NCBI GenBank assembly: GCA_013359255.1
Contig: JABWCF010000013.1
Span: 1 to 64,000 of the forward strand
DNA: 64,000 nt
Direction: 5' to 3'
Origin: Flavobacteriales bacterium
GTDB lineage: Bacteria > Bacteroidota > Bacteroidia > Flavobacteriales_E > Vicingaceae
Position 1 is the first letter of the stretch. Each line of letters starts with the position of its first letter. A model generated the notes under the pieces. The model saw nothing but the letters and a program-made list of their open reading frames with translations. It made no database searches and was not told the DNA's origin. Of this stretch, positions 6,693 to 44,720 are shown piece after piece. Both the position numbers and the translations under genes were made by a program.

Positions 6693-9600
6693 TTATTTTT
6701 TCTTTTTAAAATAAACTAAGGATACAGCCTTTTCGATTAAATCTAGCACGCGTTTAAATACATCAAAATACAAGGTAAAAGCAAGTAGCAGGCTCATGAG
6801 CCAAACCACTACAAGATTTACAGAATACGTACTGAAATATTTTCCAAACACTAATTTACGAGGGGCAAAGAAATGAGCGCGGAAATCATCGGGGTCTAAA
6901 TATACCGGATCTGCTCTTTGGTAAAGCTTCCCATCTTTTTCTAAAATTTTATTGAATTCACTTTTGTTTGTAACCAAATCGCTAAGTGCATCATTGGTGT
7001 ACTCATCTTTCATTTTAATAAATGCTTCTTTAGCAGCAGCATCTTTATTCATAGACATGATTAACTCATCTTTCTTATCGTTGGCACTGTTGTATTTTTT
7101 TATATAATGTTCGTTTACTTTTCTAAGATAGTGCGATACTGAATCTAGAATATCTTTGCGTTTACTAACTTCCGGATACGTGAGGTTTTGCAGATGAATA
7201 AAATGCACCTCCGGCATTTTATTCATTTCTTTTGAAATTTCGTGTTGCAGCAAGATCAGGTCTTGTTTTATAGATTCTGCTTTTGATTTATCTTCCAAAT
7301 TAGTGTAGCAGTTTCCTGTTTTTTCGCGTAGTTTACTTAGCCAAAAATTCTTTTTAAAATCTGCTTTTCTTAATTCTTTATCGTATGGATAAAAAATCTT
7401 TTCGAACTTATTATTTTTAAATTGGTTAACCGCAAGTGCTTCAAATGCCCAACGAGAAGTCATTATCTCTCCTGCAATTGGCACACTGTTCTGAAGAGTT
7501 ACCACCGGATTTAATTTATCAAATTTTACAATGACTCCGCTAAGTAATAATTGAGGGATAATTAAAAAGGGAATAAGTATATAAATAGTAACAGCTGAGT
7601 TAAATGTTGCCGAAATATTAAGTCCAAGCATATTGGCAAAGCAAGAGGTAGTAAATAGTACAAGCCAGTAATCTGCCCACATTCCTTTTAATCCGAGCAA
7701 ACTATTGCCTAATAAAATAAATGTAGCTGTTTGTATAGCCGAAAGCACAAACATTATCGATATCTTAGACACCAGATAACTTCCCTTGCTTAAATTAAGA
7801 AACTGCTCACGTTTGCGAATTTTCTTATCTCGAATTATTTCTTCGGCACTAACCGTTAATCCAATAAACAAGGCCACTATCACTGCCATAAAAATATAAG
7901 CCGGCATGTTTTCATTCTCTCTGAATATGTAGCCAATTTTATTTGAGGTGTCGGTATTGTAGTACCTCACTAAAAAAGCAAGAATAAACGCTAAAACAGG
8001 AGCCTCTAGCAAATTTATAAGCATATACTGCGTATTGGTAAGTTTTGAAAGCACATCGCGAGTAATAAAAACTTTAAACTGACTTACCAAATTGGGAACA
8101 TGAAAAGTGCTTTCCGGCTTTTTTTCCGGAGGAGTATGAAGTGTAATTTTCTTTTCTATGTGTTCTAAATAATCTTGGTTCCATTCTTTGGGCGAAACCT
8201 TTCTGTAGGGAGTTGGATTACCGTACTCATCAACCACCTTAGCCTCAATAATATTAAAAATTTGCTCCGGGTTTACGTTACCACATTCTATACATTCGCT
8301 TTCATCGCTATTAACGTGGTTGGCTCTTTTCTTAAAATAAATTACGGCATCAACAGGATTTCCGTTATAGATAGGGAATCCGCCTGTATCAAGAATAAGC
8401 AGTCTGTCGAACATTTTAAATATGTCTGACGAAGGCTGGTGGATTACCACAAACACTAATTTTCCTTTAAGGGCAAGCTCTTTTAGCAAGTCCATAATGT
8501 TTTCCGAATCGCGGGAGGATAAACCCGATGTAGGTTCATCTACAAAAAGAACTGAAGGTTCGCGAATTAATTCCAAGGCTATATTCAGTCGTTTACGCTG
8601 CCCACCGCTAATGGTTTTATCTAAAGGGCTGCCAACTTTTAAATCTTTTGCCTCGTAAAGACCAATACTAGTGAGCATATCGGCCACCAACTTTACAAGT
8701 TGGGATTCTGGCATTTTGGCAAAACACAATTTGGCATTGTAATATAAATTCTGGAAAACCGTTAGCTCTTCAATGAGTAAATCATCTTGAGATACGTAGC
8801 CAATTACTCCTTCTATTTGATCGGTTTGATGATGAATGTCTATTCCGTTTATGGTAACTTTTCCTGATGTAGGAATATAGTTTCCGTTGAGTAAGTTCAG
8901 AAGGGTTGATTTTCCTGCTCCGCTGGCACCCATAATACCAACCAGCCTGCCGGACTCTTCGGAAAAATTAAGCGGATATAAACCAATATTTCCACCCTTA
9001 AATACATATTGAAGTTCATCTACTCTAAATACAATTTTTTCTTTAGAAGAGTCGCTCAAAAAGGCACTTACAATATCGCTATAATAAATAGGCTGAACTT
9101 TTGAACTTCGAACCGATGATCCATTGGTAAGGATATAGGTTCTCTCGGGAGTTATATTAATGCCATTCAAATACAATTCTGCCGTTCCAAAATACCTCAA
9201 CACATACATGCTTACGCTCTTAATTCGTAATATTCTTATGTGTCCGGTAATACCCTCTGAATAGAGGTGTCGGGCATTGGTAAGTGTATTAAATTTTTGG
9301 TTATTTATGTATAAAAAATCAACATCGTCCTGTATTTCCGGAGCTGATTTAGATTTTATAAAATTTAGACTCTTTTCAAACTCTTCTGTTTCTATATTAA
9401 ATGTTTCGGCTACTGTAGAAACAAACTCCATCTCTTGCTCAGTAATTTTTTCTCCGGCAAAAATAAATTCGAGCAAACGAATCAGTACAACTACTTTTTG
9501 CTTTTGAGCAAGTTCTTCGTTAATTTGGGTGCATATTCTTAAAACTTTTACCGAATTTACAGAGGTTCTTTTTCTTTTCTTTTTATCATCAGACCCCTTT

Positions 9601-33619: not shown

Positions 33620-33762
33620 CACCTCTTGTCATGTCAGTTGCTTTATATTATTACATAATATAATTTTTTTAAAAAATATTTTAATCGAACTCTGCCAATC
33701 TGACAGTAGTTTTGAATTTATTCATAACTTCGCAGACCCCTAAAAACGAAGAACTGCAAAAA

Positions 33763-35208
33763 ATGTTTCAAAGTCAAAATAAAGTAATAGAGGAATCCAG
33801 ACAAGGCGAAGCTACTCTTTTAAAAACAAATAATGAACACGAAAATCGTAAGGTTTACATTGAGAGTTACGGTTGTCAAATGAATTTTTCTGATAGCGAA
33901 ATAGTGGCTTCTGTGCTTAGCAAAAATGGCTATCGAACAACCGGAAACTTAAACGAAGCCGACTTAATTCTTATTAATACATGCTCCATCAGGGAAAAAG
34001 CAGAAGTTACCGTTCGAAACAGATTGAATAGTTTCAACGCACTAAAAAAAAATAATCCGAAATTACTCATCGGGGTTTTAGGTTGTATGGCCGAACGCAT
34101 GAAATCTCAATTACTTGAAGAAGAAAAATTAGTAGATATGGTAGTGGGGCCGGATGCATATCGCGATTTACCCTTATTGGTAAAAGAAGTAGATAGCGGC
34201 AGAAAAGCCGTAAATGTTATTCTTTCTAAAGAGGAAACTTATGCCGATATAACCCCCGTTCGTTTAGCAAGCAACGGAATAACTGCCTTCATTTCCATCA
34301 TGCGGGGCTGTGATAATATGTGCTCTTTTTGCGTAGTTCCCTTTACCAGAGGAAGAGAAAGAAGCCGAGACCCTGAAAGCATTCTAAAAGAAGCCCACGA
34401 TTTATTTAATGCCGGATACAGAGAAATAACCCTTCTTGGCCAAAATGTAGATTCCTACTTATGGAATAACGGTTTAGCTAAAAAAGACATTGAAAAACTT
34501 GCAGAAAACGAAAAAAATAAAAGTATTTGTTTTGCCCAACTTATAGAACAAGTAGCACTGATAAGCCCAGCACTGCGGGTACGTTTTTCCACCTCGTACC
34601 CTAAGGATATCACAGACGATTTTTTGCAAGTGATGAGGAAGTATCCAAATATCTGCAAATACATTCATCTACCTGTTCAATCGGGCAGTTCACGTATTTT
34701 AGAACTAATGAACAGAGGGTATAACAAAAACTGGTACTTAGAAAAAATAAACGCCATAAAAAAAATAGTGCCCGATTGTGCTATCTCTACCGATATTATT
34801 TCTGGCTTTTGTACCGAAACAGAAGCCGATCACAAAGACACTATTGAAATAATGAATTACACCAAGTACCACTTTGCATACATGTTTAAGTACTCAGAAA
34901 GACCCGGCACTTTCGCTCAAAGACAATTGAAAGATGATGTTCCGGAAGAGATAAAAACTTTACGTTTACAAGAAATTATAAACACTCAGCAAAATCATTC
35001 CCTAGAAAATAATCAAAAAGCTGTTGGTAATACCTATGAAGTACTGATTGAAGGAATCTCAAAAAAATCAGATCAACATTTCTATGGCAGAAATTCACAA
35101 AACACCGTTGTGGTATTTCCTAAAGAAAATGCCAAACCCGGAGAATACGTGAATGTGTTTATAGAATCGTGCACCCCCGCTACTTTAAAAGGAAAAATTG
35201 TAAATTAA
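33763..35208 (+). CDS. miaB: tRNA-2-methylthio-N6-dimethylallyladenosine synthase
   Basis: Radical SAM methylthiotransferase that adds a methylthio group to i6A37 of tRNAs reading UNN codons. The N-terminal cluster cysteines lie in [14 protein letters not shown] and GVLGCMAER; the radical SAM motif is GCDNMCSFC (Cys183, Cys187, Cys190); a C-terminal TRAM domain ends at GKIV. The start at 33763 ([11 protein letters not shown]) is preferred to a TTG 17 codons upstream. The sigma-54 activator gene starts after one base, so the two are probably co-transcribed. Confidence 0.93.
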
Positions 35209-35209
35209 G

Positions 35210-36424
35210 ATGGATATTCAACAAGTAAAACAACGTTTTGGTATTATTGGAAACTCTACTCTGCTAAACAGGGCCATTGATATTGCTATGCAAGTTGCAC
35301 CTACCGATTTAAGTGTTTTAATTACAGGAGAAAGCGGAACAGGTAAAGAAATTATGCCCCAAATTATTCATCAGTTAAGTGCCCGAAAACACGCTAAATA
35401 CATTGCGGTAAACTGTGGAGCCATTCCTGAAGGCACTATTGATTCCGAACTTTTTGGACACGAAAAAGGCTCTTTTACAGGTGCACACGATTCGAGAAAA
35501 GGATATTTTGAAGTAGCTGACGGAGGAACCATTTTTTTAGATGAAGTGGCAGAACTACCGCTACAAACACAAGTTCGCCTCCTCAGAGTGTTAGAAACCG
35601 GAGAATACATTAAGGTAGGCTCTTCGAAAGTTCAAAAAACCAATGTTCGAATAGTAGCAGCCACCAATGTGGCCGTTCCTGAATTAGTGAACAAAGGGAA
35701 ATTCAGAGAAGACCTCTATTATAGGTTAAATACTGTACCTATCATCATTCCTCCTCTCCGGGAAAGAAAAGAAGATATAGGTATTCTCTTCCGAAAATTT
35801 GCCTCCGATTTTGCATCGAAATATCGTATGCCCCCCATACAACTCACTTCTGATGCTACAGAAATAATTGAAAGCTACCGCTGGCCAGGGAATATAAGGC
35901 AGTTAAAAAATTTTGCAGAACAAATAAGTGTGATAGAAACCGAAAGAGAAATTGATGCCAAAACGCTTTATAACTACCTTCCTAAAACAGAAACCTCTTC
36001 GCCTGTACATATTCACTCTACCCCCGAAAACTTAAACGAAAGAGAAATTCTTTACAAAGTTTTATTTGATTTAAAAAGAGATTTAACCGACCTAAAAACC
36101 CTTGTTCTAGAACTAATGAAACACGGTAATGTTGGTCAACTAGAAGAAGCTTCCGGATTAATTAGTCGCCTCTATGCCGAAGATTTTTCAACTACTACAC
36201 AAGCCATTCAACTAGGTACTTCACAACCGCAGATATATAAACCCAACGAAATAAATACCCCGCATGAAGAAGTAGAAGAATCGCTATCGCTAACAGACAC
36301 CGAAAAAGAGTTAATTAAAAAGGCCTTAGAAAAACACAGAGGAAGAAGAAAAAATGCCGCCAAAGAACTTGGAATTTCAGAACGCACTCTTTATCGCAAA
36401 ATTAAAGAGTACGAAATAAAATAA
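35210..36424 (+). CDS. Sigma-54-dependent transcriptional activator without sensor domain
   Basis: A 404-residue bacterial enhancer-binding protein. The AAA+ domain begins almost at the N-terminus: Walker A GESGTGKE (40-47), the sigma-54 contact loop as GSFTGA (87-92), Walker B GGTIFLDEVAEL, and the R-finger region YYRLNTVPI. A Fis-type helix-turn-helix closes the protein (AAKELGISERTLYRKIKEY). There is no receiver, GAF or PAS domain, so activity must be set by level, partner or the linker (about 265-355). It lies in the miaB-lptE-secG run, and a near-consensus sigma-54 promoter precedes groES 1.9 kb downstream; whether it acts there is inference. Confidence 0.93.
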   Translation: MDIQQVKQRFGIIGNSTLLNRAIDIAMQVAPTDLSVLITGESGTGKEIMPQIIHQLSARKHAKYIAVNCGAIPEGTIDSELFGHEKGSFTGAHDSRKGYFEVADGGTIFLDEVAELPLQTQVRLLRVLETGEYIKVGSSKVQKTNVRIVAATNVAVPELVNKGKFREDLYYRLNTVPIIIPPLRERKEDIGILFRKFASDFASKYRMPPIQLTSDATEIIESYRWPGNIRQLKNFAEQISVIETEREIDAKTLYNYLPKTETSSPVHIHSTPENLNEREILYKVLFDLKRDLTDLKTLVLELMKHGNVGQLEEASGLISRLYAEDFSTTTQAIQLGTSQPQIYKPNEINTPHEEVEESLSLTDTEKELIKKALEKHRGRRKNAAKELGISERTLYRKIKEYEIK

Positions 36425-36427
36425 ACC

Positions 36428-36943
36428 ATGAATCGCACATTGAAAATATCTTTTCTTCTTATAACACTAGTTGTTTTACCCCTTTCGTGTAAAGTAAATT
36501 ACTCTTTTTCGGGTGCTTCTATTGATTACAATAAAGTAAAAACTTTTTCTGTAAAATACTTTCAAAACTATGCTCCGCAAGCCAACCCAACCCTAAGCCA
36601 AACCTTTACCGAAGCTCTAAAAGATGTTTTTCTTTCTCAAACACAATTAAGAATTGTACCCGATGAGGGCGATTTACAATTTGAAGGCTCTATTACAGGC
36701 TTTAATCTAAGTCCCGTTGCTATTACTGAAGGTGAAAGTGCCGCACTTACACGACTTACCATTACGGTAAACGTAAAATTCGTAAACACAAGCGATGCTT
36801 CACAAAATTTTGAAAATACTTTTTCGCGTTTTGCAGATTACAATAATTCAAGAAACTTTGCCGATGTTGAACAAGAACTGATTAAAGACATAAACAACCA
36901 GCTTTCTCAAGATATTTTCAACAAGTCGGTAAGTAATTGGTAA
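36428..36943 (+). CDS. lptE: LPS assembly lipoprotein LptE
   Basis: A 171-residue outer-membrane lipoprotein (MNRTLKISFLLITLVVLPLSC, Cys21 lipidated) that plugs and helps assemble LptD for lipopolysaccharide delivery. The pattern KVNYSFSGASI followed by KTFSVKYFQNYA and the DLQFEGSITGF strand is the Bacteroidota LptE signature. It starts three bases after the sigma-54 activator gene. Confidence 0.88.
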   Translation: MNRTLKISFLLITLVVLPLSCKVNYSFSGASIDYNKVKTFSVKYFQNYAPQANPTLSQTFTEALKDVFLSQTQLRIVPDEGDLQFEGSITGFNLSPVAITEGESAALTRLTITVNVKFVNTSDASQNFENTFSRFADYNNSRNFADVEQELIKDINNQLSQDIFNKSVSNW

Positions 36944-36950
36944 AAAACTA

Positions 36951-37811
36951 ATGGACGTTTCCTCCTTTTTTCAATACATAGAAAACCCTTCGCTGCTTAA
37001 TAATAATAGTGAGGCTGCTCTAATGGAACTCTGCAAAAAATACCCGTTTACCTCTACCCTACAATTGCTTTACACTAAAAATCTGCAAAACACAGAACAC
37101 ATTGCACTTAACGAACAACTAAAAATTGCTGCCGCTTACAGTACCGATAGAAAAACGCTTCATTCCCTGCTCCTGAACAAAAAACAACAAAACATTTTAC
37201 CTATTTCTGATTCGACTATTGCATTGGAAAGACAAACACAGGTTGAGGATAAAACAAATTACAGCCCGGCACAAAACACAGAAACAACGGTAGCTGAAAA
37301 AGAAAATAAAGAAAACGAAAAAAAACAATCCATTTCCCAAGGTAAAGAACTAGATTTTCTCGAAGAACAATATCTACAGGAGGCTCTCATAAACAGTACT
37401 TATGCCATAGAAGAAATAAATTCCGAAACAGAGAACCAAGACAACCAAACAAACTCCGAAATAGACGTAAATACCCAATTAAGCTTTTCCGACTGGCTAA
37501 ATACCATAGAGAGTGGCAAATTAACGGAAACTAAAAAATATTCGAATGTTGATTTGGTCATTAACCAACTAGAAAGCATAGAATTTACCGATTCAAACCA
37601 TAAAACAAAGTTTTTCAAGCCTTCCGAAATGGCGAAGAAAAGCGTTACAGAGAATGATGAATTAATAACCGAAACACTTGCTCACATCTACTTCCTTCAG
37701 GGAAATTACCAAAAAGCCCTAAACGCTTATAAAAAATTAAGTTTGAAATATCCGGAAAAAAAGAGTTATTTTGCCACCCAAATTAAATTAATAAAGGAAA
37801 AAAATAAATAA
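36951..37811 (+). CDS. Hypothetical protein with C-terminal TPR-like repeat
   Basis: A 286-residue protein with no signal peptide. The first 75 residues are helical (SLLNNNSEAALMELCKKYPF). The middle is acidic, low-complexity and probably disordered (about 85-165). The C-terminus has a single TPR-like hairpin (TETLAHIYFLQGNYQKALNAYKKL). Proteins of this layout are commonly found between lptE and secG in Bacteroidota, but no function is known to me. It lies seven bases after lptE and nine before secG, inside the same probable operon. Confidence 0.75.
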   Translation: MDVSSFFQYIENPSLLNNNSEAALMELCKKYPFTSTLQLLYTKNLQNTEHIALNEQLKIAAAYSTDRKTLHSLLLNKKQQNILPISDSTIALERQTQVEDKTNYSPAQNTETTVAEKENKENEKKQSISQGKELDFLEEQYLQEALINSTYAIEEINSETENQDNQTNSEIDVNTQLSFSDWLNTIESGKLTETKKYSNVDLVINQLESIEFTDSNHKTKFFKPSEMAKKSVTENDELITETLAHIYFLQGNYQKALNAYKKLSLKYPEKKSYFATQIKLIKEKNK

Positions 37812-37820
37812 AATATCATC

Positions 37821-38165
37821 ATGGATATCTTCATTTCTGCAATCATACTACTTATTTCAATATTTCTGATTTTAGTTGTGTTAGTTCAAAACCCAAAGGG
37901 AGGATTAGCTGCAAACTTTGCGTCTAGTAACCAAGTAATGGGAGTTAGAAAAACAGCCGATTTTTTAGAGAAAGCCACATGGACACTGGGTATTGCCTTA
38001 GTAGTATTAAGCATTGTATCGGCAGCCGTTCATCCAAAAAATGATGCTTCTAATCCTAACCAACAAGGCGAAGAATCGGCAATTCAAAAGCAAATAGACG
38101 AAGCCGAAAACCCAATTCAAGCTCCCCCTTCAATGCCGGAAGGAGTACCCACTCCTGAACAATAA
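37821..38165 (+). CDS. secG: Preprotein translocase subunit SecG
   Basis: A 114-residue inner-membrane protein with two helices (about 3-22 and 53-73) and the conserved cytosolic loop VQNPKGGLAANFASSNQVMG. SecG assists SecYE during export. The C-terminal tail is acidic and Pro-rich, as in other Bacteroidota. It is the last gene before the 189-base interval that carries the groES promoter. Confidence 0.92.
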   Translation: MDIFISAIILLISIFLILVVLVQNPKGGLAANFASSNQVMGVRKTADFLEKATWTLGIALVVLSIVSAAVHPKNDASNPNQQGEESAIQKQIDEAENPIQAPPSMPEGVPTPEQ

Positions 38166-38222: not shown

Positions 38223-38316
38223 ATGTCAGCGTGGCATATATTATCTGTCATTTTTTTAAATAAAATGAATTTTTGACTGAAAAAAAAACAAAAATCAAAA
38301 TGGCACAAATGCTGCA
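38223..38316 (+). promoter_or_regulatory. Sigma-54 promoter of groESL, with possible upstream activator palindrome
   Basis: TGGCAC (38301-38306), five bases, then CTGCA (38312-38316) matches the sigma-54 -24/-12 consensus TGGCAC-N5-TTGCA at all but one position. The GG and GC doublets have the required spacing. Transcription would start near 38327, 28 bases before the groES ATG. An imperfect palindrome, ATGTCA-GCG-TGGCAT (38223-38237), lies 64 bases upstream of the -24 box and could be the activator site. No CIRCE element is present. Promoter use is inferred from the match only. Confidence 0.7.
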
Positions 38317-38354
38317 CGAAGCAGTGCATTAAACTTTAAAAAAATAAATTCAAT

Positions 38355-38633
38355 ATGGCAAAAATTAATTTTAAACCCAACGAAGACCGCGTGCTTGTTG
38401 AACCTGCAGCACCCGAAACACAAACCAGCTCCGGCATTATTATACCCGACACAGCAAAAGAAAAACCACAAAAAGGGAAAGTAATAGCTGTTGGAGAAGG
38501 ACTAAAAGACAAACCGGTTACAGTAAAAGTAGGCGATAGTGTATTGTACGGAAAATATTCAGGAACCGAAATTACCATTGACGGCACAGAATACCTTATC
38601 ATGCGCAACTCCGATATTTTCGGAACTATTTAA
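38355..38633 (+). CDS. groES: Co-chaperonin GroES
   Basis: The 92-residue lid of the GroEL chamber. It shows the N-terminal NFKPNEDRVLVEP, the mobile loop ETQTSSGIIIPDTAKEKPQ and KVGDSVLYGKYSGTEI. groEL follows after 27 bases. A sigma-54-like promoter precedes it (38301-38316). Confidence 0.97.
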   Translation: MAKINFKPNEDRVLVEPAAPETQTSSGIIIPDTAKEKPQKGKVIAVGEGLKDKPVTVKVGDSVLYGKYSGTEITIDGTEYLIMRNSDIFGTI

Positions 38634-38660: not shown

Positions 38661-40292
38661 ATGGCAACAAAAGAAATCAGCTACAACTTAGAAGCACGCG
38701 ATGCACTTAAAAAAGGTGTAGACAAATTAGCTAATGCAGTAAAAGTAACATTAGGTCCAAAAGGCAGAAATGTAATTATTGAGAAAAAATACGGAGCCCC
38801 CTCTTTAACCAAAGACGGAGTTACCGTTGCAAAAGAAATTGAACTAGACCACCCCGTTGAAAACATGGGAGCCCAAATGGTGAAAGAAGTAGCCTCTAGA
38901 ACAGCCGATGACGCTGGTGACGGAACTACAACTGCTACTATTTTAGCTCAATCTATCATTACCACCGGTTTAAAAAATGTGGCAGCAGGTGCTAATCCTA
39001 TGGATTTAAAAAGAGGTATAGACAAAGCTACAAGTGTAGTGGTTGAAGACCTTGCAAAACAATCTCAAAAAGTAGGTGACGACAATAAAAAAATTGAGCA
39101 GGTAGCCACCATCTCTGCAAATAACGATGCTACCATAGGTAAACTAATTGCCGAGGCTATGGCCAAAGTAGGCAAAGAAGGTGTAATTACCGTAGAAGAA
39201 GCAAAAAGCACAGAAACTGAAGTAAAAACGGTAGAAGGAATGCAGTTCGACAGAGGATACCTTTCTCCCTACTTCGTTACCAATCCGGAAAAAATGGAGG
39301 CCGAATTGGACAACCCTTACATCTTAATTTACGATAAAAAAATATCCACCATGAAAGACCTGCTTCCTGTATTGGAAAAAGTAGTTCAAACAGGTCGCCC
39401 TCTACTTATCATTTCCGAAGAAGTAGATGGAGAAGCGCTAGCCACATTAGTAGTAAACAAAATCCGTGGCTCATTAAAAGTAGCTGCCGTTAAAGCACCA
39501 GGCTTTGGCGACCGCAGAAAAGAAATGCTTCAGGATATTGCCGTTCTTACCGGAGGCACTGTTGTTTCGGAAGAAAGAGGATATAAATTAGAAAATGTTG
39601 ACCTAAGTTATCTTGGACAATCTGAAAAAGTAAGCATTGATAAAGACAACACAACCATCGTAAACGGACTTGGTAAAAAAGACGAAATTAAAGCTCGAGT
39701 AAACCAAATTAAAGCACAAATAGAAACCACCACTTCCGATTACGATAAAGAAAAACTACAAGAACGCCTTGCAAAATTAGCAGGTGGAGTAGCCGTTTTA
39801 TACGTAGGTGCTGCCAGCGAAGTAGAAATGAAAGAAAAGAAAGACCGCGTGGACGATGCCTTGCATGCAACCCGTGCAGCCGTTGAAGAAGGAATTATTC
39901 CCGGAGGTGGTACAGGTTTTATTCGTGCTTTAAAATCGCTTGAAAAATTAAAAGGCGAAAACGAAGATGAACAAACAGGAATCAATATTATAAAAAGAGC
40001 CATTGAAGAACCTCTTAGACAAATTGTGGCAAATGCCGGTGGCGAAGGTTCCATTATTGTTCAAAAAGTAAAAGAAGGAAAAGCCGATTTTGGATACAAT
40101 GCCCGCACCGAAACTTTTGAAAATCTTTTTGAAGCAGGTGTAATAGACCCCACCAAGGTTGCCCGTGTTGCTCTGCAAAATGCAGCTTCTATTGCTAGCA
40201 TGTTGCTTACTACCGAATGTGTAATTTCCGAAGTAAAAGAAAAAGAAAAAGCAATGCCTGCAATGCCCGGGGGTATGGACGGAATGATGTAA
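38661..40292 (+). CDS. groEL: Chaperonin GroEL
   Basis: A 543-residue ATP-driven folding chaperone forming two seven-membered rings. Motifs: [24 protein letters not shown] (nucleotide site), the [26 protein letters not shown] stretch (in parts), and EEGIIPGGG. The C-terminus ends in [12 protein letters not shown], the usual Gly-Met tail. A strong terminator follows 19 bases after the stop, closing the operon. Confidence 0.98.
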
Positions 40293-44174: not shown

Positions 44175-44720
44175 TTAAATCAAACATAAGTTTACTAAAC
44201 CTTTTTCATTACAAAAGTTTTTTGCACTACTATATTTCCAATCTTCTGGTTTTTCAACAAAACCCGAAACAACAGGGTTATTGTGAACATAATTAATTTT
44301 TTGTTCTATAACTTCATTACTCCATAACTCTATCGGCTTGTTGTGCTGTTGCCAAAACTGATTTTTTGTATTGTTAGCGTTTGCTGATGCCGCTTTTTTA
44401 AACGCATTTAACATCCATTCCTTTCTGCTTTCTTGTGGGTGGGTTGTTATTAATGATATTAATTCTTTTGCGGTAAACGATTTAAAATCTCGTATTAATT
44501 CTTCAGGCTTTTGCTGGGTTGACTTAAATATCAAATGTACATGACTAGTCATTAGACACCAAGCATAGATTTCCATTCCTTTTTTAGACACACAATAGTT
44601 TAAATTCTTTACGATGCAGTCTGAATAATCTTCTCTTACAAACACATCTATCCAAAATACTGTTGCAAAACTTATAAAATAAAGCCCTTCAGGGTTATGA
44701 AATTTGTAGTTTCTGCTCAT
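44175..44720 (-). CDS. REP-associated tyrosine transposase (RAYT, Y1_Tnp)
   Basis: A 181-residue HUH single-strand DNA transposase of the IS200/REP-associated class. The N-terminus reads GLYFISFATVFWIDVF, the metal-binding HUH motif is MTSHVHLIF, and the catalytic Tyr lies in KINYVHNNPVVSGF. WCLM before the HUH motif is typical. The gene is intact and flanked by inverted REPs. Such enzymes cleave and rejoin REP hairpins and are thought to spread them; most are vertically kept single-copy genes. Confidence 0.92.
   Translation of the reverse strand: MSRNYKFHNPEGLYFISFATVFWIDVFVREDYSDCIVKNLNYCVSKKGMEIYAWCLMTSHVHLIFKSTQQKPEELIRDFKSFTAKELISLITTHPQESRKEWMLNAFKKAASANANNTKNQFWQQHNKPIELWSNEVIEQKINYVHNNPVVSGFVEKPEDWKYSSAKNFCNEKGLVNLCLI

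Follow-up and report, generated by a model that had tools for sequence, protein, structure and literature searches.

The closest described counterpart of the locus analysed here is in Flavobacterium psychrophilum, where transcription starts with sigma-54 motifs (SM4) have been mapped at groESL, lon, dnaK, grpE-dnaJ, htpG, skp and clpB (PMC9723704, main text). A 2025 survey, in its main text, predicts that GroEL, GroES, DnaK and GrpE are under sigma-54 in Bacteroidota (PMC12316311). The sigma-54 core of our locus is not new, since earlier work had placed such starts at groESL, dnaK and grpE-dnaJ of F. psychrophilum; sigma-54 control of chaperones is established in the phylum, and the locus is a new instance of it. 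Besides an identical -24/-12 class at the same chaperone genes, F. psychrophilum also has the gene pair of a sigma-54 regulator and lptE. However, the main text of PMC9723704 names neither an activator of the SM4 chaperone promoters nor an enhancer, and that of PMC12316311 offers promoter predictions only; we found in it neither an enhancer motif nor an activator dedicated to the chaperone genes. The TGTCA element, or TGNCA-N3-TGNCA dyad, described below does not appear in either main text (the search covered the main texts), and it is the part of this work for which we found no earlier description there. The sigma motif SM5 was considered as the same element and rejected, being a -7-box variant.

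Two better-known systems offer further comparison. HrcA/CIRCE likewise sets chaperone levels, acting through an inverted repeat that is conserved ahead of groES and dnaK, but both HrcA and CIRCE are absent here, and control would be by positive sigma-54 activation rather than repression. PspF-type activators resemble the activator at our locus in combining an AAA+ domain with a Fis-type helix-turn-helix (HTH) and no sensor domain, and in autoregulation at their own promoter, which we propose here; they differ in that our protein scores below the PspF model cut-off, has a longer linker with a conserved helix and is linked to groESL, not psp. HrcA is nearly absent from the class sampled here, and what is known of how Bacteroidota control their folding machine has come mainly from one fish pathogen's transcript map. 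A named activator with a readable enhancer would allow the regulon to be predicted and tested across a phylum that is dominant in gut and ocean.

The groES promoter and its conservation

We analysed a 64,000-nt stretch (the window) of a Bacteroidota genome of 2.92 Mb in 34 contigs. The features that matter here are:

33693–33705 (+): TGNCA-N3-TGNCA (TGCCAATCTGACA), putative autoregulatory site upstream of the miaB-activator run
33725–33732 (+): TAACTTCG, probable sigma-A -7 box (consensus TAnnTTTG) of that run
33763–35208 (+): miaB, first gene of the activator's run (Pfam UPF0004, Radical_SAM, TRAM; likely ATG at 33763, ORF listed from TTG at 33712)
35210–36424 (+): sigma-54 activator (EBP; Pfam AAA+ at residues 12–178, lid 184–264, Fis-type HTH 361–401)
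36428–36943 (+): lptE, conserved neighbour (Pfam LptE; synteny)
36951–37811 (+): gene for a TPR-containing protein, conserved neighbour
37821–38165 (+): secG, the gene before groES (Pfam SecG; synteny)
38224–38236 (+): TGNCA-N3-TGNCA (TGTCAGCGTGGCA), putative groES enhancer (UAS), centre 71 nt upstream of the -24 T
38245–38257 (+): third half-site CTGTCA with T-run, the degenerate 3' arm of the relatives' hairpin
38301–38316 (+): sigma-54 promoter, -24 TGGCAC at 38301–38306 and -12 CTGCA at 38312–38316; predicted start near 38327
38355–38633 (+): groES (Pfam Cpn10)
38661–40292 (+): groEL (Pfam Cpn60_TCP1)

Between the end of secG and the groES ATG stands TGGCACAAATGCTGCA (TGGCAC-AAATG-CTGCA, + strand), in which the GG-N10-GC spacing of a -24/-12 promoter is exact, as an earlier note on this DNA had read it. 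Counting from C(-12) at 38315, transcription would begin near 38327 and leave a 28-nt leader before the groES ATG at 38355; the earlier note had the right figure of 28 bases but took it for the distance from the box to the start window, and the region it singled out, 38223–38327, runs from the upstream element to the predicted start. The rpoN gene on which its reading depended is present in the genome in a single copy. Its statement that CIRCE is missing also held, as none was found in the window at up to three mismatches, which does not fit HrcA/CIRCE control.

Taken alone, the box is at chance level, with one strict match observed in 64 kb and 0.69 expected; weak sigma-70-like hexamers also exist, and groESL might instead be transcribed from a sigma-A promoter or by read-through from secG. 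The 64-kb count by itself is no proof, and the significance of the box comes from its conservation across the class Bacteroidia. From an even class sample of 149 genomes, groES upstreams were read in 90, and the box, with a class-wide profile of TGGCAY-N5-NTG, was found in 86 by pattern and in two more by eye (L221, TGGCAGTATTTTTGCA; L181, CGGCACAATCTTCGCC). The raw pattern matches 87, but L154 was counted out, as it matches solely through an overlapping CIRCE. The box is thus kept upstream of groES in 86–88 of 88 non-HrcA genomes sampled. In this count, as in the others given here, the genomes are related and the cases not independent. Among loci with relatives of the activator, a TGG[CT]A box lies 25–95 nt before groES in 62 of 63 upstreams, window included.

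Both exceptions, L154 (G115) and L161 (G047), have CIRCE in the place of the box (TTAGCACTC-N9-CAGTGCTAA and no box in L161), and they are two of the three genomes among the 149 that carry HrcA, all of one genus. This looks like the replacement of one control system by another, CIRCE for the sigma-54 box, and of all the evidence for control of groESL by the box, this swap is the strongest. Matches to rpoN were found in 145 of 149 class genomes. The other four are draft assemblies, two of which (G027 and G129) still have the box, so that rpoN may sit in assembly gaps there. With the box conserved at a set place throughout the class and exchanged for CIRCE only in the HrcA genus, and with a sigma-54 groES start mapped in the relative F. 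psychrophilum (PMC9723704, main text), whereas that of the window is predicted from sequence, a coincidental box is extremely improbable. The groES and groEL genes of this Bacteroidota host are almost certainly driven by sigma-54 RNA polymerase and not by the usual heat-shock controls. The earlier note had called such an arrangement unusual, which is true against other phyla; within the class Bacteroidia it is the rule, published for one species. The same note also raised a possible link from envelope or secretion stress to GroEL.

Other chaperone genes carry related boxes. Of 30 dnaK upstreams fetched, all 29 from non-HrcA genomes have one, mostly TGGCAY-N5-TTGAC and 41–75 nt before dnaK (TGGCACAATCATTGAC at 57 nt in the window's own genome), and the single HrcA genome among the 30 has no dnaK box. 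At grpE, a variant resembling TGGCAA-N5-NTTG was found by pattern in a majority of upstreams (18/30). The strict pattern TGGCAY-N5-YTGCW is a poor regulon finder, because six of its eight matches in the own genome (against one in a reversed control) fall within ORFs; it also misses dnaK, with its TTGAC. One strict match outside genes, TGGCATAATTTCTGCT (L009:1501-1516, own genome C31:24030), lies 60 nt before a putative lipoprotein gene and is a possible further sigma-54 target.

A dyad shared by chaperone genes and the miaB-activator run

An imperfect palindrome upstream of the box had been proposed earlier as a possible activator site. The palindrome, TGTCAGCGTGGCA...CTGTCATTTTTTT at 38224–38257, is real, being a degenerate version of an element that is strongly conserved, and its use by the activator has strong circumstantial support. 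The groES upstreams have AAATGTCAGNATGTCANNNNATNCTGACATTTTTT in common and the miaB upstreams of relatives TG[CTA]CATTTTG[TA]CA, and both elements fit TGNCA-N3-TGNCA, which is dyad-symmetric under reverse complement. With near-duplicates removed, the motif occurs in 88 of 144 groES upstreams (0.63 in shuffles, maximum 3), in 31 of 34 at miaB (0.07 in shuffles) and, in strict form, in 12 of 29 at dnaK (0.13 in shuffles), the own-genome dnaK motif being one mismatch off. At grpE, TGNCA-N3-TGNC is found at N3 in 26 of 30, close to the box. We collected the dnaK and grpE upstreams only when the motif was already known, so its recurrence there bears out a prediction.

In these upstreams few matches have a spacing other than N3, apart from those at N7, a spacing that agrees with the third half-site. 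Across 920 kb of neighbouring sequence there are 107 matches at N3, 66 at N7 and 14–35 at most other spacings. The distance from motif centre to the groES -24 T has a median of 72 nt in relatives, against 71 in the window. Exact TGTCAGNNTGKCA has exactly two matches in the own genome, at groES and miaB; one-mismatch matches to the motif lie mostly within ORFs. Three matches to TGNCA-N3-TGNCA occur in the window, against 0.78 expected, two of them at groES and miaB; the third, TGGCATTTTGGCA at 8709–8721, may be chance. A narrower pattern, ATGTCAGNNTGTCA, present about once per genome in ten genomes, looked confined to groES and so spoke against an enhancer common to several genes; recognition of the looser dyad at miaB, dnaK and grpE overturned that argument. 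In G003, a second ATGTCAGNNTGTCA copy on another contig (L106, G003:C90:7419) may mark another groES region or reflect contamination.

In the 13 miaB promoters in which a TAnnTT[TC]G box was found, it begins 16–19 nt downstream of the motif, and the spacing to TAACTTCG in the window is 19 nt; the motif therefore overlaps the -33 region, a placement that would suit autorepression. In L032 a Flavo-1 RNA (Rfam RF01705; 4355–4461, − strand) lies just upstream of miaB, beside TGNCA-N3-TGNCA.

Of 83 relatives that have the motif upstream of the box, 52 have it within a hairpin followed by a T-run, a short way downstream of secG, and a G+C-containing stem with a T-run is seen in many relatives; no known Rfam family was found at the groES hairpins. 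Such a structure could end the secG transcript, and the upstream element might then be a secG terminator alone, conserved as a hairpin. We regard this as very improbable. Conservation of the exact TGTCA letters and of the N3 spacing goes further than pairing would demand, no terminator was scored in the window, and the motif recurs without a hairpin at miaB, dnaK and grpE. The two genes are separated in L046; there a hairpin of another kind accompanies secG, and groES retains the TGTCAC-type sites. From the recurrence at miaB and dnaK and the sites that stay with groES in L046, the hairpin is not only a terminator. In the Blattabacterium Bge genome, a 33-bp stretch upstream of groEL was missed by pyrosequencing, probably owing to secondary structure (PMC2768785); it may be the same hairpin element.

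The activator and the proposed circuit

The activator gene ends 1.9 kb upstream of groES. Its description in the earlier note as a sensorless sigma-54 activator agrees with the Pfam scan, which found Sigma54_activat (PF00158, 225 bits; Walker motifs and a GAFTGA-like loop, with GESGTGKE, FLDE and GSFTGA conserved) and a Fis-type HTH (PF02954) at residues 361–401, but neither a receiver nor any other sensor domain. Across 24 aligned sequences the AAA+ core is conserved and SERTLYRKI, in the HTH, does not vary; a linker helix at about residues 277–305 is conserved as well; beyond this helix, an AlphaFold model of moderate quality (pLDDT 66.7) has no extra folded sensor domain in evidence. No NCBIfam equivalog was found: the PrdR, NtrC, NifA, NorR and PspF models all fall below cut-off, with a PspF score of 282.7 bits against a curated cut-off of 443.6.

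Called at E ≤ 1e-70, the activator is present in 146 of 149 class genomes, and it adjoins groES in 29 of 38 class genomes checked. Among 80 loci with its relatives, 62 include groES, all in the order EBP-lptE-secG-groES, with EBP and groES a median of 2.0 kb apart. The activator also persists in the HrcA genus, whose groES and dnaK have neither box nor motif; the protein must therefore have other roles there.

In the circuit that we propose, sigma-54 RNA polymerase would transcribe groESL from the -24/-12 box at 38301–38316. Such transcription requires an ATP-driven activator, for which the sensorless EBP is the best candidate. Its binding site would be TGNCA-N3-TGNCA, which lies some 70 nt before the -24 element at groES and recurs at dnaK and grpE; the chaperone genes would then form a sigma-54 regulon that takes the place of HrcA/CIRCE or sigma-32 control. 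Binding to the motif in its own operon promoter, over the -33 region, would provide autoregulation, which is known for PspF and NtrC. Lacking a sensor domain of its own, the EBP is presumably regulated by a partner, which might be a chaperone and would act through the AAA+ domain or the linker helix. The box, its conservation, the motif and the activator are read from sequence, and the sigma-54 starts come from a relative; the binder, the autoregulation and the signal are our deductions. TGNCA-N3-TGNCA is probably both the enhancer and the autoregulatory site of the activator, and binding of the motif by the window's own protein is, in our judgement, likely. We hold the circuit as a whole (sigma-54 groESL, EBP on a shared motif, autoregulation) to be probable as well, against which must be set that the motif is strict in just 12 of 29 dnaK promoters, near the box at grpE and in a hairpin in 52 of 83 relatives, and that the HrcA genus has the activator but neither box nor motif at groES and dnaK.

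That the position of the motif varies, from about 70 nt upstream of the -24 element at groES to near the box at grpE and over the -33 region at miaB, would fit a repressor or other factor. Sigma-54 might thus drive groESL while another dimeric regulator (an HrcA-like repressor or an unrelated activator) binds the motif and the EBP acts elsewhere. We consider this rather unlikely, as these genes have no link to any other regulator, whereas the EBP is adjacent and near-universal, has a Fis HTH of dimeric type and has the motif marking its own operon.

The own genome encodes a second full sigma-54 activator (weaker PF00158 matches, of 34 bits or less, were taken as other AAA+ proteins), and only that of the window has an HTH. 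The second (L010:1081-2244, on C4 at about 101 kb) has a receiver and an AAA+ domain, lies between ppx-like and engB-like genes and is about 5 kb from grpE. Activators without a DNA-binding domain are known elsewhere, such as FlgR of Helicobacter pylori, and this one could activate groESL from solution, in which case the motif would not be an enhancer; that option counts against the proposed circuit. It leaves both the shared motif and the EBP-groES synteny unexplained, and we think it quite improbable.

A reduced genome and the retention of rpoN

G034, a single-contig genome of 490 kb, has retained rpoN, the activator and the boxes at groES and dnaK; its activator adjoins miaB and lies about 300 kb from groES. 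A first pattern was too loose there (72 matches), and the analysis was kept to its 14 TGGCAY sites. Two of these are copies of one site in an apparent rRNA repeat, and otherwise only the groES and dnaK sites fall outside genes. The dnaK upstream holds TGCCATTTAGTCA, one mismatch from the motif, the grpE upstream TGTCAAAATGTCA and the groES upstream TGTCAG and TGTCA. A chaperone role appears to be the simpler reading of rpoN in G034.

Retention of rpoN in the flavobacterial symbionts Walczuchella, Uzinura and Blattabacterium has been called unusual, with a nitrogen role put forward tentatively for Walczuchella (PMC3971599). G034 suggests a reason why flavobacterial insect symbionts keep the gene, which we extend to the named symbionts by extrapolation, and the circuit makes this old oddity testable. 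We lean slightly towards the broader view that the sensorless activator and sigma-54 form a general chaperone (heat-shock-like) regulon of the class Bacteroidia, with a TGNCA-N3-TGNCA enhancer code and autoregulation, and that chaperone duty, not nitrogen, keeps rpoN in flavobacterial insect symbionts. Elsewhere in the window, an ORF at 44175–44720 (−) resembles, by eye, a REP-associated transposase.
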